Shown: positions 22,591-48,906 of the stretch, one piece after another
Layout of the letters: every line of letters begins with the position of its first letter
Position numbering within the stretch: position 1 is the stretch's first letter
Assembly (NCBI GenBank): GCA_964019415.1
Contig: OZ025868.1
Coordinates: 12,795,623-12,859,622, forward strand
DNA length: 64,000 bases
Direction: 5' to 3'
Origin: Ianthella basta
Lineage: Eukaryota > Porifera > Demospongiae > Verongiida > Ianthellidae
Notes under the pieces: model-generated
Told to the model about the DNA's origin: nothing
Seen by the model: the letters and a program-made list of their open reading frames with translations, nothing else
Database searches by the model: none
Translations under genes and position numbers: made by a program

Positions 22591-23691
22591 CTACAACACT
22601 GTGGTCTCATTTCCTTCGTCATTGTCACCCTCCTCAGAGGCATTGACCCGGTCTGCATCAGTTTGTTCCTGTTCCCGAAAACTGTGCTCGCTTTCGTCAG
22701 TGGTTTCCCTCCGTTCTGCATTGGATTCAGTTTGTTCCTGAGAGCCCTGCTCATTCATATCATGGGAGGAGTTATGAGTACCTTGTGGACTCTCTTCGGA
22801 TTCAAACAATCCACAAACAATTCTACACGTAATGATACAATTGCAGAATAAACCGCAACAATAACAGCACCCAAGAATTGGTATCAAAATAATAGCAGCG
22901 AAGGAGCCGCCACCAATTTCACATTCGACACTGAGTCTAACTTCACTTGTACCTGGTCCTGGTCCAATCAGTACCATGTAATAAACACTGTCATCTTGTT
23001 TGGCCAATGTACACATTTTTGACCTGTCGCTTTTGTTCACAGTGCAGGATGCAACCACATGGTCAATGTCCACTTCATATTGGAATCTCTTTAGTGCAAA
23101 TGTGGCTGTTCCTATCCTACCTCCAGAAGCAAAGTACCAGTCATCTTGAGTTGTTACCGTGGTTGCATAAGTATCAAAAGTGTTGTTATTGTTTGCATCA
23201 CATTCAGCAGAAATAAGGAATGCTTCAGCCCTGTCTATCAGTCTACCAGATTTTGCACTTGCAATTTTCCATGCTTCAAAGTTCTGTCTTCCTTCAATAA
23301 CGTATATGTAGTAGGGAACAGTGTACGTACATGCGGAAATGGTAACGTTAGATCTGGGGTATAGGTAGAAGTAATCATAATCACCTTTCTGACGGATTGA
23401 GAGATGCCGAACAAGTTCATTTTCTGGCACAAGCTTTGGGTGCGCTGACAAAGCGTATAACGTAACATCAACTAGCGCTACACTGCTTGTGATCCTCAAT
23501 GTGAGTCCGCCGCACAGGTTGACATAAGGGGAGATGATTCTCGTGTCACCGGCAATGTAGCGGTAAGGAGCCGGGGTTAGCGCTTCCTTAATCTCAAGTA
23601 CTACAAGCGCAAATCCTGGGATCAAAGCAACGCATGATACAAATGATAGAAGATAACATGCGCAGGTGTAGCATCCGGCCTGTTTATCCAT
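22591..23691 (-). CDS. Two-pass membrane protein, type A (unknown family)
   Basis: Single-exon frame, 366 aa, starting at ATG 23689-23691. A short N-terminus is followed by a hydrophobic helix at about 9-34, an ectodomain of about 225 residues, a second, Cys-rich hydrophobic segment at about 264-294 (palmitoylation possible) and an acidic Ser/Glu/Gln-rich tail of about 70 residues. The region between the helices keeps the family pattern: six cysteines matching those of the type B paralogs, an LYALS strand, the FYLYPRSNVTISACTY segment with an N-glycosylation site, and an F-x-x-W motif. I recognise no named domain. It heads the first of three duplicated blocks. Cell-surface location is an inference from topology. 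The 366-aa form is longer than type B because of the tail. Confidence 0.75.
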   Translation of the reverse strand: MDKQAGCYTCACYLLSFVSCVALIPGFALVVLEIKEALTPAPYRYIAGDTRIISPYVNLCGGLTLRITSSVALVDVTLYALSAHPKLVPENELVRHLSIRQKGDYDYFYLYPRSNVTISACTYTVPYYIYVIEGRQNFEAWKIASAKSGRLIDRAEAFLISAECDANNNNTFDTYATTVTTQDDWYFASGGRIGTATFALKRFQYEVDIDHVVASCTVNKSDRSKMCTLAKQDDSVYYMVLIGPGPGTSEVRLSVECEIGGGSFAAIILIPILGCCYCCGLFCNCIITCRIVCGLFESEESPQGTHNSSHDMNEQGSQEQTESNAERRETTDESEHSFREQEQTDADRVNASEEGDNDEGNETTVL

Positions 23692-24499
23692 CTCTCTTGA
23701 CACCAGAGCAAGCGATGCAATCACGCAGTGTAGCTAAATAGCTAGCTCTTATAGCTAATAGCTTGCCTGGTGTTGAAAGAACTTTTTCGGGTGGATAAAT
23801 CACTAAGCAGCTCCCTCTGAAACAACACGCTTTGGTGGAAATGCGGATACAGCTTGAGTCGGTCAGGTTTATTATAAGTGACGCTATAAGCTTCTGTGAC
23901 TCAGCCTTCCCTGTCCGCCGGTCCACTGGAGATTGATGGGTCAAAAATGGTCTGTAGCACTATCGTGAGATGTTGTGTACATTTTATGCCACTCCCTCTC
24001 AGTATAGCTAATTCCCATGAGACTAATGCTGTACACTTACTCCTACCTCTTGTTAAACAGTAGGTGACAAACAATGAATATTGTATGAGATTCACACTCC
24101 AGTCCATGCACTCACAACACTTTTCAATGTTAAGATGGATATCTCTTCCTCCATTTTATACACCTTGTACCTTGAATCTTGAACCTTCAAGCTGCCATAG
24201 CAGGTGAGTATAGTGCTGTGATGGGTGCCAATACATACACCAACATAATGTACACATGATCATAAGCCCTGAACAATCTGACCATTCTTCCAGATTGGTG
24301 AATGTCTTTTTGTAACCAGCCTTAATTGGCTTTCACCTCCATCTTCCAGCCCCGTTCCTCCCAAGTCTTCCTCTAAGCAATAGACTGTGGCTTCTCCTTC
24401 ACTTCTGCCTTTTATAATCCTGCCATACCCACATCTTGACATCCAATCTCTAACGTATAATTGTCTGAAAGGATTGGTTCTCTAATACCAGCTTCACAA

Positions 24500-24570
24500 C
24501 AGGGTTAAAAACCTTGCCGACGTTTCGACCAGATGCTCTGGTCTTCTTCAGGGCGAAGATATGCAATGTA
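24500..24570. mobile_element. Penelope-like terminal relic
   Basis: The segment reads CCGACGTTTCGACCAGATGC followed by a TCTGGTC hairpin and TTCTTCAGGG, a pattern typical of Penelope-like element ends. No linked reverse transcriptase is present here. Confidence 0.4.
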
Positions 24571-24826
24571 CTGCTAGCTGTCTATATTTGCTGGGTCTCA
24601 TCATCATGCATGAGAGACGATGTACTGCAGGCGACAACAAGTCTAGTTTACATACCCCCATACTGCCAAACCTAATATTATGCATACCTTTACCATAATA
24701 GGTGATGCTTATATGCACATTTAATGTGAATATTTCCCAAAGCATTATAGCTTTGCAGCTCACCAGCTCCTTAGTGTATATAACAGCCACTAATATAATC
24801 ATGATAATAGCACTATAGACCATTAA

Positions 24827-26277
24827 AGGTCCACTGTCGCATTTTTTTTTATATCATATTGATAGTGCTATGTGAAACATCTTCAATGATACCCATTTTA
24901 GTGTGCTCTGCCTCACGATGGGGGAGTTACGAGGGCGCAAAGTTGCAAAAAGACCAATTATGCGTGGGCGTTTCCGGTCTTCCGGTCCTAACAATGCTAA
25001 AATGTCGTGACGTCACAGTAGGCTCCGGAATGTCTGCACAAGTATGGAGGAGAGTAGGCCAGGCAACGGACTGAACAAGAAATCGTTATCTCTTGCGAGT
25101 CGATCATTATCTTAAGATGAAGGCGAAACTTCTTGAGACAATGAAGGAGATGCCCCTGCTGATTCTGAAATAGATCTGGGCATGCGGGTTGCGCAGCCGT
25201 ACGGCACGACATCAATTTTGCGACACGACCAATAATAGGGTGACACCCGTTCTCAGCCCTACAAACGCCGATTCGCACCATACTTGGACTGTTACAAGAG
25301 CATACGAAACAGAGATGATACATTAGCCTAGAGCTGATTCGTCACCTCCTACAAGGCGTAACAGCTGAAATACGAAGTGTGCCGAAAACATATTTCGGAG
25401 CACTCGGCACGTATTTCAGGTCACTGGCTCGCACATCGCGAGACGTAAGCATCTCTCTACTCCTACTTGCTAGGTAGTAGGGCACACACAAGCTCTGGTC
25501 ACAGCAAAAGGTTCTGACTTCAGAGGAAAAACCGTCCCCTGCTCTCTACCGAGAACGGCTGCGCATGCAGAACACCAGGAGGTGGGGGCATCGAAATGGC
25601 CCTGGGACGCCTTTTTCGTCATCCTAAAGTTACTACGTACTCACCCTTTCGTCCTTTGTAGCGATTTGTCAGCTTCTTGATTGGCTTTCTCTGTGCTAGG
25701 AAAGACTCTCCTATAAGTTAAAGCGCCATTCAGATTCTGACGGATGTACTAGAGTGAGCAAAGTGGTTGTTACTAGAATATTTACACCAAGAAACAGCGA
25801 AATGGCAGGCAGGGCATCAGTCGCAATTCGAAAGGCGCTCTAACGTACGGGAGAGTCTTACCAAGCACAGAAAGACCCTGCCAACAGCTGCTGGCCACCG
25901 CTTCTTCAGACTATCGCTCTTTGTGAAATGAAGCAGCGACCGTTGCCTCCACCATAGATCTATGCCTCCACTGGCCCTACTACATCCTCCAGCAACGCAT
26001 TTGTGATGCATCGGGGCGAGTTCATCAGCAAGGAGGACGTGAATAGCCAGTCGGCGATTGTCTTCCCACACGGCGTGTGACACGTTCATAGACACAAGTG
26101 TACGGCAAGCCTACTGTGACGTCACAGCAATATGGCGGGTTTCTTCGGCCGATTTTCCGGAAGTGAGCCATTATTGCTCTACCAGGGAATTTCGAAGCGC
26201 TCTAACAGCGATTTTCGGTGGTTATAGACCATAATCTATCATATAGAGGCAACCTGTATAACCGTGACAGTGGACCT
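24827..26277. mobile_element. Non-autonomous piggyBac-like element, TTAA-flanked
   Basis: Inverted ends AGGTCCACTGTC and GACAGTGGACCT lie directly inside TTAA at 24823-24826 and 26278-26281, the signature target site of piggyBac. GTGACGTCACAG-type inverted segments recur inside near 25006 and 26113. The 1451-bp interior has only short frames and no transposase. It separates the type A and type B genes of the first block. Confidence 0.8.
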
Positions 26278-26795
26278 TTAATATCCTGCTGCATGGTTCC
26301 TCATGATCACCTTGACATATGCTGATATACATGAAGCGAAGTGTCCATGCTGGGTAAACTTAAGCCAACTTATAAAGCTGCTACTTGATGAAATGCACAT
26401 GGTTAGATACTCGTGCTATAGATATGACCTGATAGATATATATAGATCTGGTTGAAGCTTAAGCAAGGTATTTAGAACTATTTTAATGCTACTGGGCATT
26501 CGAGATTGACCCCATAAATATTCCATGGTTACCATAGCTATCCAGATGAAGTTTATAATTTCCTCACCTGCAATTAATTAGAAGTATCATCAATTTGCCA
26601 TACATTTTTGTGGCCACCAATGCAGGAGATCTCCGGTAAAATTAGCCAACAGGCATACTAGGGCAGCATAACTATATATAGTGTAACAGCAGCAATACAG
26701 TGCAAAAATCCTTAACATAAAATAAAGTATCTAAATAATAGAGTACTGGTACAGATATATATGGTTGATCAGCAATATATAGCTATTTAGTCTTT

Positions 26796-27671
26796 CTAAT
26801 TACACACAAACCTCAAACAGATGCAAATACAAAATGTGATGCAGGAAAAGCAGCAAAAGACAAGAGACGATGGCACAATGATGGCTGCCAGCAATCCAGG
26901 ATGCAATGCACATGTTATGCTAACGTCCACTTCAGTTGTATTTGGCCCTGGGCCAACATGTAGTAAGTATGTGACAGTATTGGAATTCGGCTTGGAGACT
27001 ATACAACTCCGTTGAGTACTGCCTACAACAGTACAAGATGTGATCACATAGTTGCTATCCACTTCATACTCAAATCGCTTGATTGTAAAAATTGCTCTGG
27101 CTGTGTTACCATCAGAAACCAAATACCAATCATCTGCTGCTGTTGCAGTGGTATTGTAGACATCCCAGCCAGTATCCTCCGAACATAGGGCTGTAATGGG
27201 GAATGATTCAAAAAGAATTAATCTCTCTCCCTGTCCTGCTGCTTTCCAGCTTTCAAAGTTATTTCTCCCTTTGATGAAATATAAGTTATAGGGAGCAATG
27301 TACGTGCACGCAGACATGGTAATATTAGATCCGGGGTACAGGAAAAAGTAATCGTGATCCCCTCTCTCTTGGATAAGAATCTCGCGGATAAGTTCGTTCA
27401 CATCGGACAGCATCGGGCGCTCAGACAGAGCGTAAAGCGTAGCATTGACAGGAGACTCACTGATCCTCATTTCCAGTCCACGGCAGAGTGTCAGATCAAG
27501 GGAGATGATTCTCGTGTCGTTGGCAGAATAGCGATACGGATCGTGTCTCAACCGGTTTGCAATATCAATTCCTACAATAACGGTTCCTGGGATGGAAATC
27601 AGGAAAGAAACTACCGCAATGATACTGCATAACACTTCGCAACATTCACGGGACTTTTCAGACTCTCCCAT
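26796..27671 (-). CDS. Two-pass membrane protein, type B copy 1
   Basis: Single-exon frame, 291 aa from ATG 27669-27671 (MGESEKS). Helix at about 14-36, then an ectodomain of about 225 residues with sites NDT, NAT, NIT, NTT and NTT, six conserved cysteines and the motifs LYALSERP, FFLYPGSNITMSACTY and DDWYLVSDGN, then a very hydrophobic, Cys-rich second helix and almost no tail. The same protein recurs at 40754-41629 and 48034-48906 with few differences in the ectodomain but different last residues. An upstream in-frame extension exists but MGES is conserved in all three and gives a sensible topology. It starts 212 bp from a divergent plus-strand ATG (27884). Function unknown; a surface receptor or adhesion role is only inferred. 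Confidence 0.8.
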   Translation of the reverse strand: MGESEKSRECCEVLCSIIAVVSFLISIPGTVIVGIDIANRLRHDPYRYSANDTRIISLDLTLCRGLEMRISESPVNATLYALSERPMLSDVNELIREILIQERGDHDYFFLYPGSNITMSACTYIAPYNLYFIKGRNNFESWKAAGQGERLILFESFPITALCSEDTGWDVYNTTATAADDWYLVSDGNTARAIFTIKRFEYEVDSNYVITSCTVVGSTQRSCIVSKPNSNTVTYLLHVGPGPNTTEVDVSITCALHPGLLAAIIVPSSLVFCCFSCITFCICICLRFVCN

Positions 27672-27883
27672 CTTAGCCGTACTGAGCCAACACAACGCAG
27701 GAGAATGCCTACAATACGTATATACTTCCGGTCCGCTTCTGAAAGTTATATTATGAATATTAAGAGCATGGGGCTGCTCCAACAGGAAAGGGAGATGCCC
27801 AGATGACGTGGACGGCAAGGGACACACGAGGACAGGATTGCCCTGAATCGAGCGCGTAACTGTAGCCGCACAATGTTGGCAAG

Positions 27884-28260
27884 ATGCCCGACAAAGTGTA
27901 CCAGGTCGTTGTCCAGAAGCTGAAGCAAACGCGCAAAGACATGAGTGGAGCTCAGTGGAAGCCTACATATGTAACTTGTACTACGAAGGTACTTTTTAAA
28001 GGACCAAGTCGCGCTAATCCTTTGATCGCCCCTACCGTATCAAGCGCCCCCACGACTTAAAACTCCCAGCAATCTACGAATTAGCGCAGAGGTCTGAATC
28101 GTTCTCAGAACAACCCTGATGAGTCGGGGTCAGCAGTTCATTCTGCACCTACGGTGGAACAACTGGAATCCGAGTACCCTGGATACCAGAAGCAGATTGA
28201 AGGTCTCAAAAAGCAAGTGCATGACCTGAATGCAGAGGTTGTGCTATACTGCAGACAACA
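27884..28260 (+). pseudogene. Unrecognised plus-strand gene fragment, block I
   Basis: ATG 27884 opens a frame MPDKVYQVVVQKLKQTRKDM that is repeated exactly at 41841. In this copy the following text, equivalent to the EAYICNLYYEG segment of the second block, is shifted out of frame by small indels. It lies head to head with the type B gene and upstream of a transposase relic on the same strand, so it may be the N-terminal part of that transposon. Confidence 0.4.
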
Positions 28261-28439
28261 CCTCAGCGTTTGGATGTCATGATGCTGAAGAGTGAGGAAT
28301 TATTGTTCATGTATATGTTATGCTATATACACTTGGGTCAATCATGCTGTGTTTGAAATTTTGTTCGGCTGGCTACTTCCAGCAATCTATTTGCCTCCGG
28401 AATCAGCATCACCTTCCATATACTGTCCTAGCTCCAGTA

Positions 28440-28940
28440 TTCCATCCACTGGTTGATTTCTAAGTGATTCTCAGAAGCTGCTGTTGGTTATTATGCGTTT
28501 AAGGCAAAATCTGAAGCAGGACGACTTTGCATTTTAGTTTGTTGTTAACAGAGTACAGTGTCCAGGGTGATCAATCAGTGGGTTTCAATGCTGGCTCACT
28601 ATCTCAAAGGCCTAATAAAATGGCCAGAGACAACTACAGGACTCACCATTGCTCCCTATAACTATATGCCAAATACAGTAGGTTTCATAGATGGGACTGA
28701 ACTCTTAATCCAGCGCCCATCCAACTTGGCCACACAGAAATCAGCATACAATGAATACAAGAGTCACACAACAATGAAGTATTAATACTCTTAATCCAGC
28801 GCCCATCCAACTTGGCCACACAGAAATCAGCATACAATGAATACAAGAGTCACACAACAATGAAGTATTAATACAGCCACACTTAGATCCTTTCACTGGA
28901 GTGTTCACTTGTGTGTCTCCTGGCTCTTCTGGAAATGCAA
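28440..28940 (+). pseudogene. HARBI1-like DDE transposase relic, block I
   Basis: Broken reading frames encode MRLRQNLKQDDFAF, then VINQWVSMLAHYLKG, then the catalytic-core-like segment VGFIDGTELLIQRPSNLATQ and YKSHTTMKY, typical of DDE_Tnp_4 (Harbinger-type) transposases. A TAG interrupts QDDFAF and further indels break the frame. An 83-bp piece ending in GAAGTATTA is tandemly duplicated at about 28704-28872. The matching relic at 42420-42870 lacks this duplication. Confidence 0.65.
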
Positions 28941-29111
28941 TCGACATGTTTGTACAAATTGTGTTTGCATAGTTGAATAACTGGTGTTATTATTGGTTAA
29001 TTTGGACATATTTGCAATATTAATGTCCAAAGTGATTGTAGTAAGACTTATGTATCAGGAAAGAATTAATGGTTAACACATTTCTACCTTTTCACTTTAT
29101 ACCTTATTTAG

Positions 29112-29256
29112 CACCTCCCGAGTCTGCAATGAGGACTGCATTTAGAATGGTGCATGTACATTATATATAAGAAGAGCTTAACCATGGTGATCCCAGTATA
29201 TGCCATCCATCACAACCCAGAGAGTTGGGAGGACCCTGAGACTTTCAATCCCGACA
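29112..29256 (+). pseudogene. Isolated P450 exon 11 copy, block I
   Basis: Homologous to exon 11 of the P450 at 13327-20383, with the preceding and following intron edges retained from about 29043 to 29290. An in-frame TAG replaces the TTG codon after GCATT, and an insertion of about 10 bp disrupts the middle. The usual neighbours, exons 10 and 12, are not adjacent. Confidence 0.85.
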
Positions 29257-29306
29257 GGTATGGCCTGCATGTAGCTGTGTGTGTACTTCACTGGTGGATG
29301 TAGGGT

Positions 29307-30962
29307 CAGGCATCAGTTTTCAGATGCCATATGAAATCAGACGCCATATCTCAGCCGTAAGCACACCATTATTCTTTGGATTTGGTCTATATATGTTCAA
29401 AAGGAGTATGCAACATGGTACCCTTGATTAAAACCAGAGTGTCACCTTCCTTCAGAAGTTCTAGCGAATAATGCGAAACGTCCGAAGTAATATTTCTTTG
29501 GACCAAAGGCATATATATAACTTTGGATTGTTGCACGTTCATCACAAAGAGCAAAGATCTGTCTAGTCTCGTCTTCAACCCACTTCCGGACACCATTTTA
29601 TTGGCCCGAAAGGTGGTCTGGTGGCTTTCATCGACTTTCTTGGGCCTGGCAAGTCGATTCCAACAATAATTCCTGCTGGCCATACAGATTGCAGAATAGC
29701 CCAATTGTTGCATAACCATGACCGAAGATGGAAGGAAGTGTCTCTTAGCACTATCCTATCTCCCTCAATCAACAAGTGTTGTCCTACAATTTTGGCTCAC
29801 GGCTCCTGCATTGTTTTGTCTAAAATCAATGTTTGCAGGTGCACAAATTGTTAGCGCAGGACTCCAGGAAAGTATCTATCTAAGCTAAGAAGACATCAGG
29901 CTGTGTGAAGCTGGTACTTTAGCTTATAATTTCAATCGTGTACAAGCGGTTGAAAGGGGTTCGTGATCAAGAGATTTGCATAGGCTGTCATGCAATCGGA
30001 ATCGACTTTCTAGGGCCCTAGAAATTAAAGTCAACCAAAGTCACCAGACCACCTTTCGGGCCTTTGCAAAATTGTGGTCAGAACTGGGCTGGGAACGAGG
30101 CTAAGATCTGTCCACCTTTACAAGACTGTCAAACAGGCACACTCCAGTCCTGGTCGCATCCAAAGTTTTGAGTGAAATGTCTTTGTCCCAACGGAGCATT
30201 GGGGCTTAGAACCGAAGACATTGGGGTCATCAATAATTGGACTAATTTCCACCAGCATAAAACTGCAGATTGCCTTTTCTCCTCACCTAGCATTTATTTT
30301 TCTTAATGCCACCACATCTGCGCTTCCCACTACTTTGCTGTCACTAACAACGTCGTTCGACTAGCGATGAAGGCACCAGCATCATGCCATGAGCAATGTT
30401 GGGAAATGCCTCAAGTCTGCTACAGGATACTCGACACAGTGGAACTGCTTGTGGTGCTTTCACTGCAATTTCAATGACGTTGTTAGTCACAGTAGAGCCA
30501 GAGGAAGCACAAAATGAGGTAATATTTAGAAGAAAAGGCACTAACACAGGAGAAAAGGTGATTTGCAGCTTTATGAGAATGGAAATAGTCCGATTATTGA
30601 TGACTCCAACGCCTTCAGTTCTAAGACCTCATGCTCCGTTAGGACGAAGGCATTTCATTCGAAACTTTGGATGTGACTGGAGTGTGCCTGTTTGGCTGTC
30701 ATGTAAAAGAGGACAGATCTTTGCTCTTCGTGATGAACGTGCGATGCTCCGAAGTTATATGCCTTCGGTCTGAAGTAATATTTCTTCAAACTCTTTGCAT
30801 TTTTTGCTAGAACTACTGAAAGAGGGCACCACTTTGGCTTTAATTAAGTGTACGATGTTGCACACTCCTGTTGAGCATAAAGACCAAGAACCAAGAAAAG
30901 TGGTCTGCTTACGGCTGAGATCAGGTGTCCAATTTCATATGGCATCTGAAAACAGATGCCTG
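29307..30962. mobile_element. Foldback transposon with about 350-bp inverted repeats
   Basis: Outer ends GGTCAGGCATCAGTTTTCAG and the complement ending GATGCCTGACC define a 1.65-kb element whose arms (about 29307-29670 and 30010-30962, with interruptions) pair imperfectly, including a piece with GGCCCGAAAGGTGGTCTGGT. One arm alone occurs at 43207-43440 at the same position relative to P450 exon 11, so insertion preceded the block duplication. No long open frame. Confidence 0.75.
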
Positions 30963-31002
30963 ACCTTCCTCTGATACTGACATGGTCATACATGCATTAT
31001 GT

Positions 31003-31126
31003 AATAGTTAAATGCTGACCAAGAGGTGTCTCTGAGATTTAGAGCACGAGGGTGCAAAGCGCCCAAGTGCCGAGTGGTCTATATAAATCTTCAGAGACAC
31101 CGATTGGTCAGCATTTAAGTGTTATA
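31003..31126. mobile_element. Foldback element, TTATAACAC family
   Basis: Arms AATGCTGACC..AGAGGTGTCTCTGA and complement TCAGAGACACC..GGTCAGCATT surround a loop with GCACGAGGGTGC and GCCGAGTGG. Related to the foldback elements at 20606, 32569 and 55537. Confidence 0.7.
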
Positions 31127-31689
31127 GATCCCAACGACGGCAGCGAATCAGTTTAACTACTCGTACTTGCATCATCACGCGTCTTCCGGAAGTAGTTACT
31201 GACAATGGCCGAGAAAACGTCGTTTGGTTATAGGGTTTGTCATCTCACAGCAGACGTTCCTAAAGGTCGGCAGTGGATGCGGCGCATAAGCTAAACGTGC
31301 TTACTCACTGTCAGCCCCATCAGCCACAGCGTTTCCCAGAGCGGTGTCCTAAGCCTGTTCCCAGCTGGTAACCAGTACCTTCCTTTCTCAGCTCTGGTTC
31401 GTAGCCCACTGCCGGCGTAGCTTGTAGCCAGCTGCATTTCCAATTTCTTGGCTCTGGTTCGCAGCCGGATTGTTGCTGTATCTTATTTATCGATGAAACA
31501 AGTAAGCCGGGCGACCTGTACATCGTATCGTATGTTATGGCGCCACAATTGTTATCACAGCTGCAGGGATCTACGGGATTTAGACATCCGGTATCTAAAT
31601 GATTTAGATCCCGCGCGAAATACAAGAGAAGTCTACGTGTTTTAGAAACATCGCTTAGAATGCCTGTTATCATGGTAACGGGATCTATA

Positions 31690-32560: not shown

Positions 32561-32568
32561 TGTATTAG

Positions 32569-32664
32569 TTATACCACGGCGCTGAGGTGTATATGGATTT
32601 TAGGCGCACGATGCCCGAGGGCGAGTCCGTCTAAAATCCATATACACCGAAGCGCCGTGGTATA
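32569..32664. mobile_element. Foldback element, TTATACCACG variant
   Basis: Arms of about 35 bp (TTATACCACGGCGCT..GGTGTATATGGATTTTAG and complement) with a loop GCCCGAGGGCGAGTCCG. It sits at the edge of the P450 fragment. Confidence 0.75.
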
Positions 32665-32669
32665 AGTGA

Positions 32670-35112: not shown

Positions 35113-37069
35113 GTATCTCCTATGCAGGAGGTTGTTCTTACATAATAGTTTCATACCTATAATATCATAAACATGTCATTGCCTAAAATTATCATTCCAT
35201 CTTTTCCTTGGCCGCCCTCTTCCTCTTCTTCCTTCCATTTCAGCTTGGTATACTCTCTTTACTAGCCTGTCTGGGCCTATCTCTTCCAATGCTTCTCTCC
35301 ATCTCCTTTGGCTCTTTTTCACTTTCTCTAACACTCCTTTTTGTTGTAACTCCTCCCTAATCTCCACATTTCTCACCCTGTCAACCCTTCTCTTCTCTAC
35401 AATTCGCCTTAACACACGCATTTCTGTTGCCTGGACTGCCGACTCTTGTTGTTTGTTTAGTACCCACGTTTCACTTCCATACATCAGTGTGGGTACTACG
35501 ATGGCATTATATACTCTCAGCTTTGTCCTCCTACTCAACTGCCTCCTCTTCCACACCGGTTCATTCAACACCCCTATCACTCTTGCCGCCTTCCCAATCC
35601 TACTCCTGATTTTCTCTTCCATTCTTCCATCTCCACTTATCATCACTCCCAAATACTTCACTACTTCCACTGACTCCAACTTCCTGTCCCCAACTTCCAC
35701 ACAGCAATGTCCCCTCTCTTTCCCCGCCTTCATTACCTCCGTCTTCTCCAAATTCATTTTCATTTCCCACTTTGTCAATGCCTCATCCAATTTCGTTAAA
35801 TTCACTCGTAGGGACTCTTCACTGTCTGCCACCAACACCATGTCATCCGCAAAAAGCAAAACATCAACATTCTCCTCTCCCAATCTCACACCTTCCTTGA
35901 AGCCTTCTCTTGCTTCCTTTACAGTAACATCCAAAAATACATTGGTGAGAGAGTACATCCCTGCCTTACCCCTTGTTCCACTTCAAACCACTCCGAATGC
36001 TTTTCCCCCACCTTCACTCTCGCCTCACACTCCACATACAGGGACTGTATTGCCCTCACAAGCCCCTCTCCCACCTGTGCTTGTTTTAGTGCCTCCCACA
36101 GCTTCACCCTATTCACTCTATCATATGCTTTCTCCAGATCAATAAACGCCATAAGTAACTCTCTCCTCTTCTCAATTCCCTTCTCCATTACTTGCCTCAA
36201 GGTGAACACTTGGTCTATACAACCTCTCATTGCTCTAAACCTGCATTGCTCTTTCATCACCCTCCCCTCCGTGCTTGCTCTTAACCTAGTGTTCAATACT
36301 TTACCATTTCCCGGCCACACTCAGCAGACTTATTCCTCTGTAGTTACTGCACGTCAGCCTACGACCCTTCTTGTAGATAGGAATGACCACTGCGCTCCTC
36401 CAATCCCTTGGGCCCTTACCAAACCTCATCACCATATTGAACACCATTTGCATCCACTTCATTAAGCTTATTCCTACCGTCTTCAACAACTCCACTTGAA
36501 TCTCACACACACCTGGACTTTTCCCATTCTTCATCTTTCTCAGCTTACTCGCCATTTCCTCCAGCTCAATCTCCTCAGTTTCTTCCGTCACGCTTACACC
36601 CACCCTACAGTTCTCCACAACCTCTCTTGTCCCTGAATACAGTCCTGTGAAATACCTCTTCCACCTATCTACAACCAACTCCTCCTCGCCCACTATCATT
36701 CCATCCTCATCCTTCACTCTTCTAAATACCTCTTCTCTTCCCTTACCTCCCAATCGTTTCACCTTCGACCAGAACTGCTTCTGCCCACCCTGTGCATCTG
36801 CTTCCAACTCTCTACCAAGGTCAATCCACTCTTCATTCCTAGCTCTCCTCACTACCCGCTTGGCCTCCCTCTTCGCTTCTACATATCTCTGCCTAGATTC
36901 ATCCGTTTCTACTTCCAAAATCACTGGTTGCCAACTTAATAGGGCCTTTTGGGCCTCCCAACTAACTGTAACACAAATACTGGTGTAGTTGGTTAGTGGC
37001 GTAAACCCAGTGATCCTTCAAGCAACAAACCTAGCCTTTGCAGTGGCCTAACTGCAAGAGTCACTTTTG

Positions 37070-38329: not shown

Positions 38330-39350
38330 ACCTTGAACCTTTTCGGGTGGATCACGATGCAGCACCCACTAAATTTACCACCATTAGCTAACACCAAACA
38401 ACACGCTTTGGTGGAAATGTAGGTACAGGTGTGAAGAGTTTGTCAAGTTTATTATAAGTGACGGTATAAGCTCCTGTCATTCCGTCGGTCCGCTGGAGAT
38501 AGGTGGGCCAAACATGGCCTAGTACTATGCTGTACGTGTTCATTGTATGCCACTCCCCTTGGTGCAAGTCCCATGAGACTGTTGCTGTATTTAGCTAATT
38601 GGTACAGTTACTCCTACCTTGGACAAACTTGTTTGTCTATGCTCCTACCTCTCGTTAAACAGTAGGTGTCAAACTATGAATATTGTATAAGATTCACACT
38701 CCAGTCCATGCACTCACACTTTTCAATGTTAAGTTAAGATGGATATCACTTCCTCCATGGGTTTGATGTGGTACCTCGAACCTTGAACCTTCAAGCTGCC
38801 CATATCAGGTGAATATAGTGCTGCGATGGGTGCCAATACATACACCAACACAGTGTACACATAATTATAAGCTTAAGCCCTGAACAATCTGACCATTCTT
38901 CCAGTTAGGTGAGTTTCATTAACATATAAATGATAACCAGTTTTGGCTATCACATCCATTTTCCAGCTCAATTCCTCCACAGTTAGCCTCCAAGTAATAT
39001 ATAGACTCTAGCCTCTCCTTCACTTCTGCCTTTTATAATCCGGCCATAGTCACATCTTGACACCCAATCTTTTGCGATGTATAATCAACTTATGCATGCA
39101 ACCAACTATATCTCAACCAAAATCAACAGACTCTTCATATTATGTGATATCTGTACGTACATATGCAATGTACTGCTGTCTGTATGTGCTGGGCCTCATC
39201 ATCATGCATGAGAGAAGGGCTGCAGGCAACAACAAGTCTAGTTTACATACCCCCATACTGTGAAACCTAATATTATGCATACCTTTACCATAATAGGTGA
39301 TGCTTATACGCACATTTAATGTGAATATTTCCCACAGCATTAGCTATATA
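38330..39350. repeat. Block II flank shared with blocks I and III
   Basis: Matches 46395-47560 closely and about 23790-24800 more distantly; this is the 5' flank of the type A gene in the other blocks. In this block the type A gene itself is absent: the sequence to the left (38215-38330) is an inverted-order scrap of the same flank. Confidence 0.85.
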
Positions 39351-39789
39351 TAATTACCTCACCTGCAATATAATGTTATTATAAAAGGTAGATGAAGGAC
39401 AGGCATTATAGACAGTAGAATTTTGTCTCTTGCAATTGTTATGTGATACTGTGCATGTTTCATAGTATTCTCTATTTTCCTATTTGTTTGTCCCCAAGGA
39501 ATTCATGTGTGATCATTGAGCATGGACATAGAAATGTACTGCCTGTTGCATGCAACACAAGTCAGTAAGCTTGTCAGCAGCCTGCAGGGTATCAGCATTG
39601 TAATGGGTCATCCATGGAAATATATATGCCATACACATTTGCAGTGAAAAAGTATTATCCCATTTACTATACATTTTTGTGGCCATCAATGCAGGACATG
39701 GTAAAATTAGCCAACACGCATACTTCGGCAGCATATATATAGCGCACCAAACCTAAGTTGGCAACATTGCAGCTACGAAAAAGAAAAAG

Positions 39790-40231: not shown

Positions 40232-40277
<46 letters not shown>
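39790..40277 (+). mobile_element. LINE 3' end with zinc-knuckle C-terminus and (ATA)n tail
   Basis: A frame ending at 40068 encodes CRECQ..IEDVPHWLLECHAW followed by ERQPLL, the C-x2-C-x-H-x4-C pattern seen at the C-terminus of several LINE polymerases. About 165 bp of 3' untranslated sequence and a (TAA)n tail (40232-40277) follow. The orientation is opposite to the LINE at 34455-36960, and the two are not evidently the same family. Confidence 0.65.
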
Positions 40278-40645
40278 GCGTACTGATCGGTTGTTAAGCG
40301 CACCCCCTCATAAGCTCAGAAACTCTGTTAAGCGCACATTTCCTTACCAGTTTTCACCCTAATTATTAGGTGCATAGTAATTTCAGGGATTCACCCTATT
40401 AGGCACATAAAAGGAATCCCTAGCCTAGCCTAACCTAGCCATTTGCCTTAAGTGCAATGTAGTAGTAAAGATAACGGTTGAATGAGAGCTCACTTACTGC
40501 GCTATGCGGCGGCCATCTTAATATGACGCATGCATATCATTATAATTTCTTGACCCATTCGTTTAAGCGCATATCCTTTATTAGACTCATATTTTCTTCC
40601 TGCCAGAGCTATAAGCGCATGTGCTAAACAACTGATCAGTACGGT
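40278..40645. mobile_element. TA-flanked MITE beside the LINE tail
   Basis: Ends GCGTACTGATCGGTTGTTAAGC and the complement of CCGTACTGATCAGTTGTTTAGC pair with TA on both outer sides. The interior has several TTAAGCGCA motifs and no gene. Confidence 0.65.
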
Positions 40646-40753
40646 AATACTAAATAGTGTAACAGCAGCAATACACTACAAGAAAAATCTTTAATATAAA
40701 GTATAACCTGCTGCACCTGTACAGATACGGTTGATTATAATTATTATAGCTAC

Positions 40754-41629
40754 CTAGTCTTTATTGACTTTTATACAGATGCAAACAGACAATGTGGAGC
40801 AGCAAATGCAATGAAGGACAAGAGACGATGGCACAATGATGGCTGCCAGCAATCCAGGATCCAATGCACATGCTATGCTAATGTCCACTTCAGTTGTATT
40901 TGGCCCCGGGCCAACATGTAGTAAGTATGTGACATTATTGGAATTCGGCTTGGAGACTGTACAACTTCGTTGAGTACTGCCTACAACAGTACAAGATGTG
41001 ATCACATAGTTGCTATCCACTTCATACTCAAATCGCTTGATTGTAAAGATTGCTCTGGCTGCATTACCATCAGAAACCAAATACCAATCATCTGCTGCTG
41101 TTGCAGTGGTACTGTAGACATCCCAGCCAGTATCCTCCGAACACAGGGCAGTAATGAGGAATGACGTGAAAAGAAACTTTCTCTCTCCCTGTCCTGCTGC
41201 TTTCCAGCTTTCAAAGTTACTTCTCCCTTTGATGAAATATAAGTTATAGGGAGCAATGTACGTGCACGCAGACATGGTAATATTAGATCCGGGGTACAGG
41301 AAAAAGTAGTCGTGATCCCCTCTCTCCTGAATAAGAATCTCGCGGACAAGTTCGTTCACATCGGACAGCATCGGGCGCTCAGACAGAGCGTAAAGCGTAG
41401 CATTGACAGGAGACTCACTGATCCTCATTTCCAGTCCACGGCAGAGTGCCAGATCAAGGGAGATGATTATCGTGTCGTTGGCAGAATAGCGATACGGATC
41501 GTGTCTCAACCGGTTTGCAATATCAATTCCTACAATAACGGTTCCTGGGATGGAAATCAGGAAAGAAACGACCGTAATGATACTGCATAACACACCGCAA
41601 GGTCCACAGGACTTTTCAGACTCTCCCAT
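40754..41629 (-). CDS. Two-pass membrane protein, type B copy 2
   Basis: Single-exon frame, 291 aa, starting MGESEKSCGPCG at 41627-41629, nearly identical to copies at 26796-27671 and 48034-48906 across the ectodomain. The same helix-ectodomain-helix topology and glycosylation sites are present. The end reads CICIKVNKD, different from the other copies, so the cytoplasmic tip diverges sharply while the ectodomain does not. A divergent plus-strand frame starts 212 bp upstream at 41841, as in block I. Intact frame, hence probably functional. Confidence 0.8.
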   Translation of the reverse strand: MGESEKSCGPCGVLCSIITVVSFLISIPGTVIVGIDIANRLRHDPYRYSANDTIIISLDLALCRGLEMRISESPVNATLYALSERPMLSDVNELVREILIQERGDHDYFFLYPGSNITMSACTYIAPYNLYFIKGRSNFESWKAAGQGERKFLFTSFLITALCSEDTGWDVYSTTATAADDWYLVSDGNAARAIFTIKRFEYEVDSNYVITSCTVVGSTQRSCTVSKPNSNNVTYLLHVGPGPNTTEVDISIACALDPGLLAAIIVPSSLVLHCICCSTLSVCICIKVNKD

Positions 41630-41840
41630 CTTAGCCGTACTGAGCCAACACAACGCGAGAGAATGCCTACATACGTATATACTTCCGGTCCGCTTCTGAT
41701 AGTTTTATTATAATTATTAAGAGCACGGGGCTGCTCCAACAGGAAAGGGAGATGCCCAGATGACGTGGACGGCAAGGGACACACGAGGACAGGATTGCCC
41801 TGAATCGAGCGCGTTACTGTAGCCGCACAATATTGGCAAG

Positions 41841-42215
41841 ATGCCCGACAAAGTGTACCAGGTCGTTGTCCAGAAGCTGAAGCAAACGCGCAAGGACATG
41901 AGTGGAGCTCAGTGCATGGAAGCCTGGATTGGAAGCCTACATATGTAACTTGTACTACGAAGGTTTTAAAGGACCAATTCGCGCCGATCCTTTGATTGTC
42001 CACTCCATATTCAAGCGCCCCCACGACTTCTACTCCCAGCAACCTACGAAGCAGCGCAAAGTTCGCAAGTGTCACATAACGCGAGTTCTGAATCGTTCTC
42101 AGAACAACCCTGATGAGTCGGGGTCAGCAGTGCATCCTGCACCTACGGTGGAACAATTGGAATCCGAATGCCTTGGCTACCATGCAGAAGCAGATTGAAG
42201 GTGCCTGACCTGAAT
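41841..42215 (+). pseudogene. Unrecognised plus-strand gene fragment, block II
   Basis: Starts with the same MPDKVYQVVVQKLKQTRKDM as block I. A second frame, displaced by a 14-bp difference, continues AYICNLYYEGFKGPIRADPL and then a basic stretch (KQRKVRKCH) and a Glu-rich helix. Together they suggest one original protein of at least 120 residues. Not recognised; possibly the N-terminal part of the HARBI1-like element that follows. Confidence 0.4.
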
Positions 42216-42419
42216 GCGGAAGTTGTGCTACTGCAGTCAACAACCTCAGCGTTTGGATGTCATGATGCTGAAGAGTGAGGAATTATTGTTCATGTATATG
42301 TTATGCTATATACACTTGGGTCAATCATGCTGTGTTTGAAATTTTGTTCGGCTGGCTACTTCCAGCAATCTATTTGCCTCCGGAATCAGCATCACCTTCC
42401 ATATACTGTCCTAGCTCCA

Positions 42420-42900
42420 GTATTCCATCCACTGGTTGATTTCTAAGTGATTCTCAGAAGCTGCTGTTGGTTATTATGCGTTTAAGGCAAAATCTGAAGC
42501 AGGACGACTTTGCATTTTAGTTTGTTGTTAACAGAGTACAGTGTCCAGGGTGATCAATCAGTGGGTTTCAATGCTGGCTCACTATCTCAAAGGCCTAATA
42601 AAATGGCCAGAGACAACTACAGGACTCACCATTGCTCCCTATAACTATATGCCAAATACAGTAGGTTTCATAGATGGGACTGAACTCTTAATCCAGCGCC
42701 CATCCAACTTGGCCACACAGAAGTCTGCATACAATGAATACAAGAGTCACACAACAATGAAGTATTAATATAGTTGTTATTGATCCCTTCACTGGAGTAT
42801 TCACTTTTGTGTCTCCTGGCTCTTCTGGAAATGCAATCGACAGATTTGCACCACTTCTCAAAGTGTGTTCGCATAGTTGAATAATTGGTAATATTATTGG
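42420..42900 (+). pseudogene. HARBI1-like DDE transposase relic, block II
   Basis: Same broken frames as 28440-28940, including the TAG after QDDFAF, without the 83-bp tandem duplication. It continues a little further in frame-like form as VIDPFTGVFTFVSPGSSGNAIDRFA, the segment following the catalytic core. The shared stop shows the element was dead before the block duplicated. Confidence 0.65.
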
Positions 42901-43015
42901 TTTGGACATTTTTGCAATATTATAATGGCCAAAGACTTGGTAAGACTTATGAATTAGCAAGGGATTACTCGACAGGTTAACACATTTCTACCTTTTCACT
43001 TTGTACCTTATTTAG

Positions 43016-43156
43016 CACCTTCTGAGTCTGCAATGAGGACTGCATTTTGAATGGGGCATGGACATTTTAGGAAGAGCGTAACCATAGTGATCCCAGTATA
43101 TGCCATCCATCACAACCCAGAGAATTGAGAGGACCCTGAGACTTTCAATACCGACA
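43016..43156 (+). pseudogene. Isolated P450 exon 11 copy, block II
   Basis: Second stray copy of exon 11. Here a TGA replaces the tryptophan codon of NWEDPE and a deletion breaks the frame near GGACATTTTAGG. The TTG lost in block I is intact, so the two copies decayed independently. Confidence 0.85.
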
Positions 43157-43206
43157 GGTATGGCCTGCATGTATGTAGCTGTGTGTGTACTTCCCTGGTG
43201 TTTGTA

Positions 43207-43440
43207 GGGTCAGGCATCAGTTTTCAGATGCCATATGAAATCAGACACCAGATCTCAGCCGTAAGCAGACCATTATTCTTGTTCTTGGTCTATATATGCT
43301 CAAAAGAAGTATGCAACATGGTACACTTGATTAAAACCAGAGTGGCACCTTCCTTCAGAAGATTAAGCTCTAGCAAAAAATGCAAAAAGTCCAAAGTAAT
43401 ATGTCTTTGGACCGAAGGCATATAACTTCGCACTTTCCAC
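43207..43440. mobile_element. One arm of the 29307-30962 foldback transposon
   Basis: Matches the left arm from GGTCAGGCATCAG to about GCATATAACTTCG and then ends. The right arm and centre are missing. Confidence 0.8.
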
Positions 43441-43517
43441 AGCCAAGCTTAAGGTTGTAGCTATTATAGCTATAGCTAACTAGATAGCTACACTGACTAG
43501 ATAGAATAAAAATTTTC

Positions 43518-43742
43518 TACAAAGAACTACTAAAGATATAGGGCTGACATAAAAAGTACAGAAACAAGGAACGGTTATTACACAGTGGAGCATTCACCAT
43601 TGTCCCTACATTGGAGTGTTGCACCGTGTAGCACTGCACTCTTGCATGTAGGGACAATGGTGAATGCTCCACTATGTAGTGCCTTTCCATGTTTCCATAC
43701 TTTTATGCCAGACCTACATCTTTAGTAGTTTTTGTAGAAAAT
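43518..43742. mobile_element. Foldback element related to 19141-19385
   Basis: Arms TTTTCTACAAAGAACTACTA and complement near 43740, with an inner perfect pair GAGCATTCACCATTGTCCCT / AGGGACAATGGTGAATGCTC. No coding content. Confidence 0.8.
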
Positions 43743-44489
43743 TTCTATTCTTTCTAGTTTCTGCACTTTTTATGGAGCTTACTATAAGCTCAGATATGAT
43801 ACATTGCCACACCCACAGGACAGCAATGCAGGTATGTATATGGTCCTGATGTCTGGAGATGTACCGAAGTGGCAACTAGAACAGGAGTCACTATGTTCAC
43901 CAATGTTGAAGTACGTAAGTAGGACACACGTGACTAGATGTTGCGCAAGCACTCTTCGACATATACACTCTCGGAACGCTATGAACAGTTGGGCAGTGCC
44001 AAGCGTATAAGGCAGAGAATATAAAGGGGATGAAGGAAAGGAGTACTTAAGGAGAACGCCATAAGAGATCGATTGATGATTTGACGACTAGCTAGTTATG
44101 GCTAGCTACTGAGATAGCTAAGGTAACTGGTGCTATCATTAAACTTTGGTATGCTTGCAAGCTGAATGCATCAGATTCTCCAGTTGTAATGCAGCATGTG
44201 GTATACAACCCTAGTAGCAATTTGGGAGTGCTTGTAGCTATGTTTGAATGAAGAAATTGGTCCATGGAGTATCTATAGTATCATCAATTGTTCACTGTCA
44301 CACATGTGATGTGCAGAGCATGGTAGATACAGGATATTTGTATGCTGTGTGCAGTAGCTATCTGAATAGGAAGGAATTATATGTGCACCATCTCAGCAGT
44401 GTCCAATACAGAGACTACAGGCAAAGGATATAATATTATACAAATAAGACCAGGAGTAAATCAAAATAATGTGACTACTTAATACTTGA

Positions 44490-45655
44490 ATACTGTCACT
44501 ATTAGATGGCTGCAGTGAAATATTCTGAATGCACCTTCTCTTGATGCAGCACTGTTTGAGTTTGCCCGGGCCACCAAATTTAGCCTCGTCCAAACAAAAC
44601 CAGCACCCACCACAATCATCTGCTTGGCAGGCCTTGCAGTCTCCACACCTCTAGCGTTTACGCTTCTGTCCTGTCTCACTTGTATGTCTTACTAGTGTCA
44701 AGGAGGATTGGCAAGTACGGTATTGGTGTTTCTTTCTTTCCTACAAATAATGTACAATAGTAGTCATACATAGCACATGCATGCATGTGTGCTACTTGAA
44801 ATAGACTATTATTAGTTGAATATCTTTCGAAGGTGCTCAGTCTTTCTTCCAACTCTGTTTCTGTGTCTGATATCTGCTCTTCTTCGCCCCGGCCTACAAC
44901 GTGAATGTGATTCTTGAGATGCATACACAGATGTCTTCTTTGACAGATTCATGTATTTCTTCTTGATGCGTTGTGCTCATTCCAGAAGAGACAAGGGTCT
45001 GAGAGTAAATCCTTCACTTGATGGTAATCCAGCTTTGAATATCTTAGTCATCTCATGCAACTTTTCCAGCATGGTTTGAAGGTGCTCAGCGCTGCAGCAG
45101 GTGTGTGAGAGGGTTTCAATTACTTTGGTGGCATTTAAGACCTTCCGACGTAATCATTTGATGCTCTTAATCTGAATTCAAGGGATAAGATGGTTGCCCG
45201 TATTGACAGTTCAACAGTTTCTCTTCTTTCACTGAGAAGAGAATGTGGTTGAATGTTATATCCTGGTCTCCTTCTCTTTTCTTTATGAAAGCTTTGGCAC
45301 ACGTGGAGACTAAAGTGGAGAGGGAGAATTGGTTGAATCAATTCTGTTGTGATCTTTCATTCAAAGCTTGAAACCCTTACCTCAACAATGCACATGCACC
45401 CTTAATAATTGGCTTTTAATATTGTACATTGTTTTAATAGTTATCAGGAGCAGATGCAACTCACTTCAGTTTGGTTCTCTTTGCCTTGGGGACTTTGTAT
45501 CTGCCTTGAGTGCCTTGTGCCAAAGGTAGTGATAGTATCTGCTGTCAGTTTCTTCACTAAACTGTCTGGTTCATTGACTATCACTTCGTAGTATACCCCT
45601 TTCTGTTCTAGTAACTCTGCCCACCTTGGTTTTTGCATCCCGCGCATGCTTAATC
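44490..45655 (-). pseudogene. CXXC zinc-finger gene relic
   Basis: Minus-strand sequence at about 44660-44520 encodes a canonical CXXC domain: CGDCKACQADDCGGCWFCLD, then KFGGPGKLKQCC and KRRC, with all eight zinc cysteines in place. Directly before it a TAG interrupts a basic KRKR run. Upstream, a 61-codon exon-like frame (45647-45465) starts MRGMQKPRWAELLEQKGVYY and ends at GTGAGT, and 45140-44990 encodes a helical stretch LQTMLEKLHEMTKIFKAGLP before TGA. These pieces do not join in phase, so the locus looks decayed. CXXC domains bind unmethylated CpG in proteins such as CFP1, KDM2, TET and MLL; which of these, if any, is the source cannot be decided. It could also be transposon-borne. Confidence 0.55.
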
Positions 45656-45857
45656 TATGACAATAGGCCCTTGGACGGTACAATAATAGGCATGTCACGT
45701 GCATCCTAAAATTACTTCCGTATTTCAACATTTGTAAACATAGTGACTCCCGCTTTTATACAGGACTACCACCGTTTACGTTGTTCATCACACTTTTCCA
45801 TATCCTGAAGAGCTACGACCGGTCGAACCTGAATTGTACAACTGAATTGTACTAGAT

Positions 45858-46308
45858 GTTGCACTTACAATTTTCCATGCTTCAAAGTTCTGTCTTCCTG
45901 CAATGGCGTATATCATGTAGTATAGGGAACAGTGTACGTACATGCAGAAATGATGACGTTAGATCTGGGGTATAGGTAGAAGTAATCATAATTACCTTAC
46001 TGACGGATTGAGAGATGCAGAACAAGTTCATTTTCTGGCACAAGCTTTGGGTGCACTGACAAAGCGTATAACGTAACATCAACTAGCGCTACACTGCTTG
46101 TGATCCTCAGTATGAGTCCGCTGCACAAAGTGACATAAGGGGAGATGATTCTCGTGTCACTGGCAATGTGGCGGTAAGGAGCCGGGGTTAGCGCTTCATT
46201 AATCTTAAGTACTACAAGCACAAAATTTAAACCTGGGACCAAATCAAGGCAGGATACTAATAATAGACGATAACATGTCCAGTTGTAGCAGGAGGAGTGT
46301 CCGTCCAT
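45858..46308 (-). pseudogene. Two-pass membrane protein, type A, broken copy
   Basis: Start corresponds to MDGHSSC. Protein-level similarity to the gene at 22591-23691 is close up to HLSIRQ, where AAA has become TAA. A 5-bp insertion follows near TATATCATGTAGTATAGGG, and homology ends around 45860, removing the second helix and the tail. Confidence 0.9.
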
Positions 46309-46329
46309 CTCTCTTGACACCAGAGCAAG

Positions 46330-47570
46330 TGATGCAATCACGCAGTTTAACTAAATAGTTAGCTGTTATAGCCAGCAGCTAGCCTCTTGTTGAAAGGACC
46401 TTTTTGGGTGGATCACGATGCAGCACCCACTAAATTCACCACCATTAGCTAACACCAAACAACACGCTTTGGTGGAAATGCAGGTACAGGTGTGAAGAGT
46501 TTGTCACGTTTATTATAAGTGACGGTATAAGCTCCTGTCACTCCGTCGGTCCGCTGGAGATAGGTGGGCCAAACATGGCCCAGTACTATGCTGTGCATGT
46601 TCATTGTAAGCCACTCCCCTTGGTGCAAGTCCCATGAGACTGTTGCTGTATTTAGCTAATTGGTACAGTTACTCCTACCTTGGACAAACTTGTTTGTCTA
46701 TGCTCCTACCTCTCGTTAAACAGTAGGTGTCAAACAATGAATATTGTATGAGATTCACACTCCAGTTCATGCACTCAGACACACTCTTCAATGTTAAGAT
46801 GGATATCACTTCCTCCATGGGTTTGATGTGGTACCTCGAACCTTGAACCTTCAAGCTGCCCATATCAGGTGAATATAGTGCTGCGATGGGTGCCAATACA
46901 TACACCAACACAATGTACACATAATTATAAGCTTAAGCCCTGAACAATCTGACCATTCTTCCAGTTAGGTGAGTTTCATTAACATATAAATGATAACCAG
47001 TTTTGGCTATCACATCCATTTTCCAGCTCAATTCCTCCACAGTTAGCCTCCAAGTAATATATAGACTCTAGCCTCTCCTTCACTTCTGCCTTTTATAATC
47101 CGGCCATAGTCACATCTTGACACCCAATCTTGTGCAATGTATAATCAATATCAATCAAGTCAATCAAATTAATCAAAAATCAAATCAGTATATAATCAAT
47201 TTTGTGTTCATGTATTTTTGCCTTTCTTTTCTGGGTGCTATTTACGGTAGCCATTGGCTAACGGTTCCCCAGGTAAAATAAGAATACCTGATACCTGATC
47301 AACTTATGCATGCAGCCAACTATACCTCTACCAAAATCACCAGACTCTTTTCATATTATGTGATATCTGTACGTACATATGCAATGTACTGCTGTCTGTA
47401 TGTGCTGGGCCTCATCATCATGCATGAGAGAAGGGCTGCAGGCAACAACAAGTCTAGTTTACATACCCCCATACTGCCAAACCTAATATTATGCATACCT
47501 TTACCATAATAGGTGATGCTTATATGCACATTTAATGTGAATATTCTCAAGGCATTAGCTATATTATATA
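46330..47570. repeat. Block III flank shared with blocks I and II
   Basis: Near-identical to 38330-39350, with a 130-bp AT-rich insertion (about 47140-47300) not present in block II. No gene. It separates the broken type A copy from the type B gene. Confidence 0.85.
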
Positions 47571-48033
47571 ATTACCTCACCTGCAATATAGTATAAAAGG
47601 CAGAAGAAGCTATATATCTAGATCTGTTGTTTTTCCCCAAGGAATTTATGTGTGATCATTCAGCATGGACATAGAAATGTACTGCCTATCGCATGCAACA
47701 CAAGCCAATAGGCTTGTCAGCCATATAGCAGCCTGCATAGTATCAATCAGCATTGTAATGAGTCATCCATGGAAATATATACATATATTCCACCACCAGT
47801 GCAAGTTACAGTAGCCACCACCACATGTGCTAGTAGAGTATCTGCGCTAGTTGTCAGGCCTGACTAGACATATATATATCTCCGCAGTATAATTAGCCAA
47901 CACTCATACTAGGGCAGCATATAGTGAAACTGCAGAAATACAGCATAAGTAAAATCATTAACACAAAGTGTGTACCACACAGAGTACTCAGTCTGGTATA
48001 TATAGATACGATTGATCAGCATTATATAGTTAC

Positions 48034-48906
48034 CTAGTCATCACACCTTTTACAGATAAAAACACACAATGTGATGCAGCAAAAGCAGCAAACGACAAGA
48101 GACGATGACACAATGATGGCTGCCAGCAATCCAGGATCCAATGCACATGCTATGCTAATGTCCACTTCAGTTGTATTTGGCCCCGGGCCAACATGTAGTA
48201 AGTATGTGACATTATTGGAATTCAGCTTGGAGACTGTACAACTCCGTTGAGTACTGCCTGCAACAGTACAAGATGTGATCACATAGTTGCTATCCACTTC
48301 ATACTCAAATCGCTTGATTGTAAAAATAACCCTGGCTGCATTACCATCAGAAACCAAATACCAATCATCTGCTGCTGTTGCAGTGGTACTGTAGACATCC
48401 CAGCCAGTATCCTCCGAACACAGGGCAGTAATGAGGAATGACGTGAAAAGAAACTTTCTCTCTCCCTGTCCTGCTGCTTTCCAGCTTTCAAAGTTACTTC
48501 TCCCTTTGATGAAATATAAGTTATAGGGAGCAATATGCGTGCACGCAGACATGGTAATATTAGATCCGGGGTACAGGAAAAAGTGATCATGATCCCCTCT
48601 CTCATGAATAAGAATCTCGCGGACAACTTCATTTACATCGGACAGCATCGGGCGCTCAGACAGAGCGTAAAGCGTAGCATTGACAAGTGACTCACTCATC
48701 CTCATTTCGAGTCCACGGCAGAGTATCAGATCAAGGGAGATGATTCTCGTGTCGTTGGCACAATAGCGATACGGATCGTGTCTCAACCGGTTTGCAATAT
48801 CAATTCCTACATAAACGGTTCCTGGGATGGAAAGCAGGAAAGAAACTAGCGTAACGATACTGCATAACACTTCGCAACATCCACAGAACGTTTTGGACTC
48901 TCCCAT
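48034..48906 (-). CDS. Two-pass membrane protein, type B copy 3
   Basis: Single-exon frame, 290 aa, from ATG 48904-48906 (MGESKTFCGCCE). Helix near 14-36, the same glycosylated six-cysteine ectodomain and the second helix, ending CVFICKRCDD. More substitutions in the N-terminal third than between copies 1 and 2, but the segment from about 48250 to 48540 is nearly identical to copy 2, which hints at gene conversion. The divergent plus-strand frame seen upstream of copies 1 and 2 is missing here, where homology stops at about 48975. Confidence 0.8.
   Translation of the reverse strand: MGESKTFCGCCEVLCSIVTLVSFLLSIPGTVYVGIDIANRLRHDPYRYCANDTRIISLDLILCRGLEMRMSESLVNATLYALSERPMLSDVNEVVREILIHERGDHDHFFLYPGSNITMSACTHIAPYNLYFIKGRSNFESWKAAGQGERKFLFTSFLITALCSEDTGWDVYSTTATAADDWYLVSDGNAARVIFTIKRFEYEVDSNYVITSCTVAGSTQRSCTVSKLNSNNVTYLLHVGPGPNTTEVDISIACALDPGLLAAIIVSSSLVVCCFCCITLCVFICKRCDD

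Follow-up and report, generated by a model that had tools for sequence, protein, structure and literature searches.

A clustered gene family of Ianthella basta predicted to encode membrane proteins with an APD1-4-type ectodomain and no detected RING finger

Introduction

The APD1-4 proteins (ABERRANT POLLEN DEVELOPMENT) of plants are transmembrane RING E3 ligases with reported links to V-ATPase and Rab. The same source describes them as 'orphan' ligases, their substrates unidentified (PMC13210498). APD2 is located in intracellular membranes (PMC4824782). Among the matches listed in the open-licence literature, none concerned APD1-4 in animals, and the APD1-4 work there was on plants. The present analysis covers a stretch of 64,000 nucleotides from the sponge Ianthella basta (assembly GCA_964019415.1, contig OZ025868.1, positions 12,795,623 to 12,859,622), termed the window. 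It contains four intact members and one broken member of a gene family whose products match the outer domain of plant APD1-4. With a probability of about 0.62, these are membrane-anchored proteins with an APD1-4-type ectodomain and without a RING finger, in which a conserved binding ectodomain is combined with exchanged tails; the function is inferred from sequence.

The gene copies and the domain match in copy B3 are as follows.

22591-23691, minus strand: copy A, 366 amino acids; hydrophobic N-terminal segment, six-cysteine ectodomain, cysteine-rich second helix and an acidic tail with TVL at its end
26796-27671, minus strand: copy B1, 291 amino acids, almost no cytosolic tail
40754-41629, minus strand: copy B2, 291 amino acids, almost no cytosolic tail
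45845-46308, minus strand: broken A-type copy; residues 1-121, a frame change and in-frame stops, similarity ending near residue 151
48034-48906, minus strand: copy B3, 290 amino acids, almost no cytosolic tail
48490-48681, minus strand: APD1-4_N match in B3, residues 76-139 (genome place C1:12844112-12844303)

Identity of the ectodomain

An earlier note on this sequence had called the family unrecognised and had named a profile search of the ectodomain as the refuting test. This search matched the described Pfam family PF16040 (APD1-4_N) and, in distant paralogues, PF16041 (APD1-4_M), so the ectodomain is not an unrecognised one. The Pfam scan placed PF16040 at about residues 76-139 of all four window proteins. 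In the B copies no other model matched, and in A PF16040 ranked first among five weak matches. The cut-off of the model is 27 bits. B3 reached 27.1 bits as a whole protein and 29.7 in the genome search. B1 and B2 stayed under the cut-off as whole proteins (24.8 and 25.1 bits) and exceeded it in the genome search (27.9 and 28.1 bits), while A remained under it both times (21.8 and 25.1 bits). Three of the four intact window copies thus passed in the genome search.

The specificity of the match carries most of the argument. All 25 PF16040 matches (E<=1) in the 209 Mb genome fell on this gene family, 22 of them over the cut-off. In 24 of the 25 places, the same locus was listed by tblastn with B3 as query; the exception, C1:8.913 Mb, was linked to the copies on contig C14 by tblastn (E 1.9e-10). 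Pfam scanning at E<=0.1 detected PF16040 in 19 and PF16041 in five of the 20 intact members. No PF16040 match was found in 14 control genomes, a result of little weight since those named are prokaryotes.

PF16041 adjoins PF16040 downstream in the same frame in distant paralogues. In the genome search, it exceeded its cut-off of 25 bits in the C15 copy, the C1:8.913 Mb copy and two C14 copies. The third C14 copy passed only with same-frame neighbours added, and a sixth match, in the broken C14 copy, stayed under the cut-off. Whole-protein scans again passed the C15 and C1:8.913 Mb copies, while C14a fell short (24.3 bits). Alignments of B3 with paralogues on C14 and C15 spanned nearly its full length (31% and 29% identity; E 1.3e-16 and 6.6e-12). 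Therefore, the second region is common to the family even where the PF16041 model is silent. Judging from the model names, PF16040, PF16041 and RING are presumably the make-up of plant APD1-4. The assignment of the ectodomain to the APD1-4 type is made with high confidence.

Topology, cysteines and glycosylation sites

The four intact single-exon genes and the broken copy of the earlier note were all located where it had placed them; 'single-exon' denotes here one open frame read from the genomic sequence alone. B1, B2 and B3 share 86-90% identity at the protein level. Between A and the B copies, identity is 44-45% (tblastn E 2e-72 to 3e-69); these values are far above chance. The broken copy is A-like, with 77% identity to A across residues 1-121 (46308-45940) and an extra piece after the frame change up to A residue 151 (45946-45845).

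The structural description given in that note also held. By hydropathy, each of the four window proteins has a hydrophobic segment at both the N and the C terminus; across all 20 intact members, the 19-residue hydropathy peak was never below 1.6 on the N side or 2.1 on the C side. The six ectodomain cysteines (C63, C122, C163, C213, C223 and C254 in B3) are present in all four window copies and in all but one of the 20 intact members. Up to five ectodomain N-glycosylation sequons had been described; the B copies carry five each, every one within the ectodomain, and A has six, three in the ectodomain and three in the tail. A long acidic tail in A was likewise recovered, 84 residues beyond the second hydrophobic peak versus 12-14 in the B copies.

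Six copies on contig C13 (e, f, g, h, j and k; L012, L013, L014, L015, L017 and L018) have a short, weak N-terminal hydrophobic stretch (peak 1.6-2.2). It may be a cleaved signal peptide, in which case a part of the family would be single-pass.

Search for a RING finger

Pfam detected no RING in the 20 intact members (E<=0.1). A C3HC4-type RING pattern gave one low-complexity match only across the family loci examined. When the genome was searched with PF13920, a RING model, and the best 150 of 277 candidates were scored, the nearest match to any member lay about 327 kb away, on C1. RING is very likely absent from these proteins, and a separate RING exon for these genes appears unlikely. As no RING was found, the family would not be classed as E3 ligases.

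The same search revealed an array elsewhere in the genome. About 94 of the 150 scored PF13920 matches (hand count) lie at C5:9.1-10.33 Mb, most of them within one open frame of some 400-500 amino acids. The array forms a very large cluster of RING genes, presumably TRAF-like.

Cytosolic tails and sorting motifs

The cytosolic ends vary by branch across the family. Each of the three intact copies on C14 has two PPxY motifs in its proline-rich cytosolic tail; PPxY is absent from all four window copies. PPxY motifs recruit NEDD4-type ligases. Acidic dileucines, which direct endolysosomal sorting, were found in the C-terminal tails of C13g, C13k and C22 (3/20; shuffled mean 0.35, 7/2000 shuffles as high) and on the N side of the distant C1 copy (C1far).

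The C14 copies (L019:2348-3634, L020:801-2057 and L020:5899-7179) have an N-end rich in Gly and His, with four tryptophans between it and the first helix. It is conceivable that this N-end binds metal.

Genome distribution and repeated blocks

The family occupies at least 30 places on six contigs, 20 intact and 10 broken. This count was obtained from 32 tblastn pieces (B3 query) and profile matches, with pieces of the same gene merged by hand; it is a lower bound, the genome search scoring best candidates only. Five of the places, four intact and one broken, are in the window. Contig C13 (6.267-6.349 Mb) harbors nine intact and eight broken copies, and C14 three intact and one broken. One intact copy each is present on C15, C22 and C83 and at C1:8.913 Mb. 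Some of the broken copies could be assembly errors. In the tree, the four window copies cluster together (98/98), in agreement with a locally duplicated family as described previously. The nine C13 copies also group together (100/99), while the deeper branching order is unsettled.

The earlier description of three repeated blocks held in part. The window contains spacers that recur three times, but block 2 lacks an A copy and the flanks of B3 differ. The repeated elements, none with a strand assigned, are listed below.

23820-24747: repeated spacer of block 1, located between A and B1
38337-39626: repeated spacer of block 2, adjoining B2, without an A copy
46398-47781: repeated spacer of block 3, located between the broken A copy and B3
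27672-29515: 5' flank of B1, common with the B2 5' flank at 41630-43424 and with B3 only to about 75 bases

Relative to the start codon, the similarity of B3 to the other two B copies is confined to the part between about -75 and about +975. B1 and B2 have a longer 5' flank in common, with 0 differences in five adjacent 75-base bins. Along the gene, similarity among all three B copies is lost from the second helix on. The B copies look like mosaics, with 3' ends that may evolve separately.

Selection between copies

The ratio of nonsynonymous to synonymous substitution rates (dN/dS) of the ectodomain was 0.40, 0.46 and 0.34 in the three B pairs, and the synonymous rate exceeded the nonsynonymous rate in each (one-sided p 0.014, 0.012 and 0.010); the pairs derive from three sequences, are not independent, and the ratios are pairwise averages with no site-level test. 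The B ectodomain is under purifying selection. Whole-gene dN/dS was 0.65-0.75 for the B pairs and 0.32-0.66 for nine other pairs. The N-end and the second helix with the tail of the B copies gave dN/dS of 1.1-3.7 (small counts), and the contrast between ends and ectodomain reached p 0.027-0.048; both are to be read cautiously because similarity along the genes is patchy. A and B1 have kept 45% identity and the six cysteines despite a near-saturated synonymous divergence (dS 1.5).

Other features of the window

Further features of the window are the following.

1-1952 and 59727-61580: two stretches with about 98-99% identity, separated by nearly 60 kb; the second extends into the open reading frame at 61371-62363
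7341-8651, minus strand: open reading frame of 436 amino acids containing part of a NACHT domain (E 8.3e-12), an NLR-like gene fragment
12303-13035: dense repeat array; the minus strand is open for 193 codons at 12447-13028
35176-35958, minus strand: reverse transcriptase fragment (RVT_1, E 7.6e-11), between B1 and B2
51759-52571, plus strand: open reading frame of 270 amino acids
61371-62363: open reading frame of 330 amino acids with the look of a seven-helix receptor by eye

The open frame at 12447-13028 is a frame of the repeats and no gene candidate. Neither the 330- nor the 270-amino-acid frame had a Pfam match (E<=0.001). The latter appears to resemble the GIY-YIG end of a Penelope-like element.

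Proposed function and alternative explanations

The lumenal or extracellular part of these proteins would consist of APD1-4_N, followed by the region corresponding to APD1-4_M of the distant paralogues. This ectodomain, probably a beta-rich, disulphide-held domain pair, would be the working part and would bind a partner, located either on the cell surface or within the endomembrane lumen. The outcome of binding would then be set by the tail. The PPxY-tailed C14 branch may recruit NEDD4-type ligases, and the dileucine-tailed copies may undergo endolysosomal sorting. The tail-less B copies would act as tethered binders, which compete or pair with tailed paralogues. That the tail decides the output is a tentative proposal. 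It is unlikely that, in this animal-like lineage, an APD ectodomain was split from its built-in RING and rewired into a PPxY/NEDD4 branch, branches with sorting signals and tail-less competitors in the window. If such rewiring took place, one receptor module would have gained interchangeable ubiquitin and sorting outputs and would have been expanded by duplication.

Several results weigh against the interpretation as RING-less proteins with an APD1-4-type ectodomain and output-setting tails. Whole-protein PF16040 scores put A, B1 and B2 below the cut-off, B3 clears it by 0.1 bit, and A misses it in the genome search also. PF16041 had no match in the window copies in the Pfam scan, and the scores of the C14 copies lie around its cut-off (23.8-25.5 bits for the genome search; 24.3 for C14a as a whole protein). 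The C22 copy matches neither model and is tied to the family by tblastn only (E 5.1e-8). Both structure models were of low confidence, with only four related window sequences as input. A separate downstream RING exon was checked only by pattern and by the PF13920 search of 150 of 277 candidates. The three PPxY-bearing C14 copies are close paralogues and represent one inherited event, two of the three copies with a C-tail dileucine (C13g and C13k) are sisters in the tree, and YxxPhi motifs occur at chance level (5 vs 4.3).

The scores near the cut-off in the window leave room for a superfamily resemblance only, in which an independent beta-rich ectodomain scores with PF16040 by chance. One member weakly matches another family, PPC (E 0.092), as such a chance match would allow. 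This explanation is very unlikely, since PF16040 hits solely this family in the whole genome (25/25) and PF16041 follows in frame, clearly in the C15 and C1:8.913 Mb copies and at the cut-off line in the C14 copies. A decaying cluster of relaxed, largely non-functional duplicates, with the open frames as recent leftovers, would account for the ten broken places out of 30 and for B protein ends that vary without visible constraint. It is quite improbable in view of an ectodomain dN/dS below 1 in 3/3 B pairs (p 0.010-0.014; pairs not independent) and of the identity and cysteines retained between A and B1 at dS 1.5. The same constraint bears on the suggestion, made in the earlier note, of a lineage-specific surface recognition family, whose ectodomain would have been diversified by duplication for many ligands in allorecognition or microbe recognition. 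Birth-and-death clusters of 20 intact and 10 broken places, patchy similarity of the B copies resembling conversion, and a cysteine-rich ectodomain with several sequons are in accordance with it. Nevertheless, an ectodomain dN/dS above 1, the mark of diversifying recognition receptors, was not found in the B trio. Change between these recent copies is purifying in the ectodomain (0.34-0.46) and free at the ends, and the nine other whole-gene pairs are also below 1, although a few positively selected sites would escape such averaged ratios. The closest described relatives are endomembrane ligases (PMC13210498, PMC4824782). The suggestion is thus unsupported, and a recognition family is improbable.

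A narrower form of the favoured interpretation regards the tail-less window copies as decoys or dominant negatives, which bind the same partner and block sorting or ubiquitylation. The B ectodomain is constrained although only 12-14 residues follow the second hydrophobic peak, and paralogues with PPxY or dileucine tails exist. On the other hand, the tree places the window group far from the C14 copies with PPxY tails, and the cysteine-rich end of the B copies could itself be a sorting signal. Decoys appear rather unlikely. Membrane-anchored proteins with an APD1-4-type ectodomain and without RING remain the preferred interpretation. They place the APD1-4 domain in an animal-like genome, and a natural RING-less set points to a role that belongs to the ectodomain itself. 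Its many divergent sequences, in which cysteines are conserved and sites constrained, offer material for a partner search.

Comparison with known systems

NDFIP1/2 and CYYR1 are membrane proteins with PPxY motifs that serve NEDD4-type ligases as adaptors or partners. The C14 branch alone, whose proline-rich cytosolic tail contains two PPxY motifs, resembles them in its possible working mode; the window copies differ by the lack of PPxY. The Pfam CYYR1 model matched one of the 20 members, at E 0.084 only. PPC, GOLD and other jelly-roll beta-sandwich domains are candidates for a fold similar to that of the ectodomain, the PPC match being the one mentioned above.

The closest likeness is to plant APD1-4. 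The N domain is recognized by profile in 19/20 intact copies (E<=0.1), the M domain lies beside it in distant paralogues, and hydrophobic segments flank the ectodomain. Unlike plant APD1-4, the 20 intact copies have no RING that was found. The family also occupies at least 30 places in one genome, versus an APD group of five in a plant RING table (PMC6118397). Finally, in contrast to plant APD1-4, it consists of clustered single-frame genes with varied tails.

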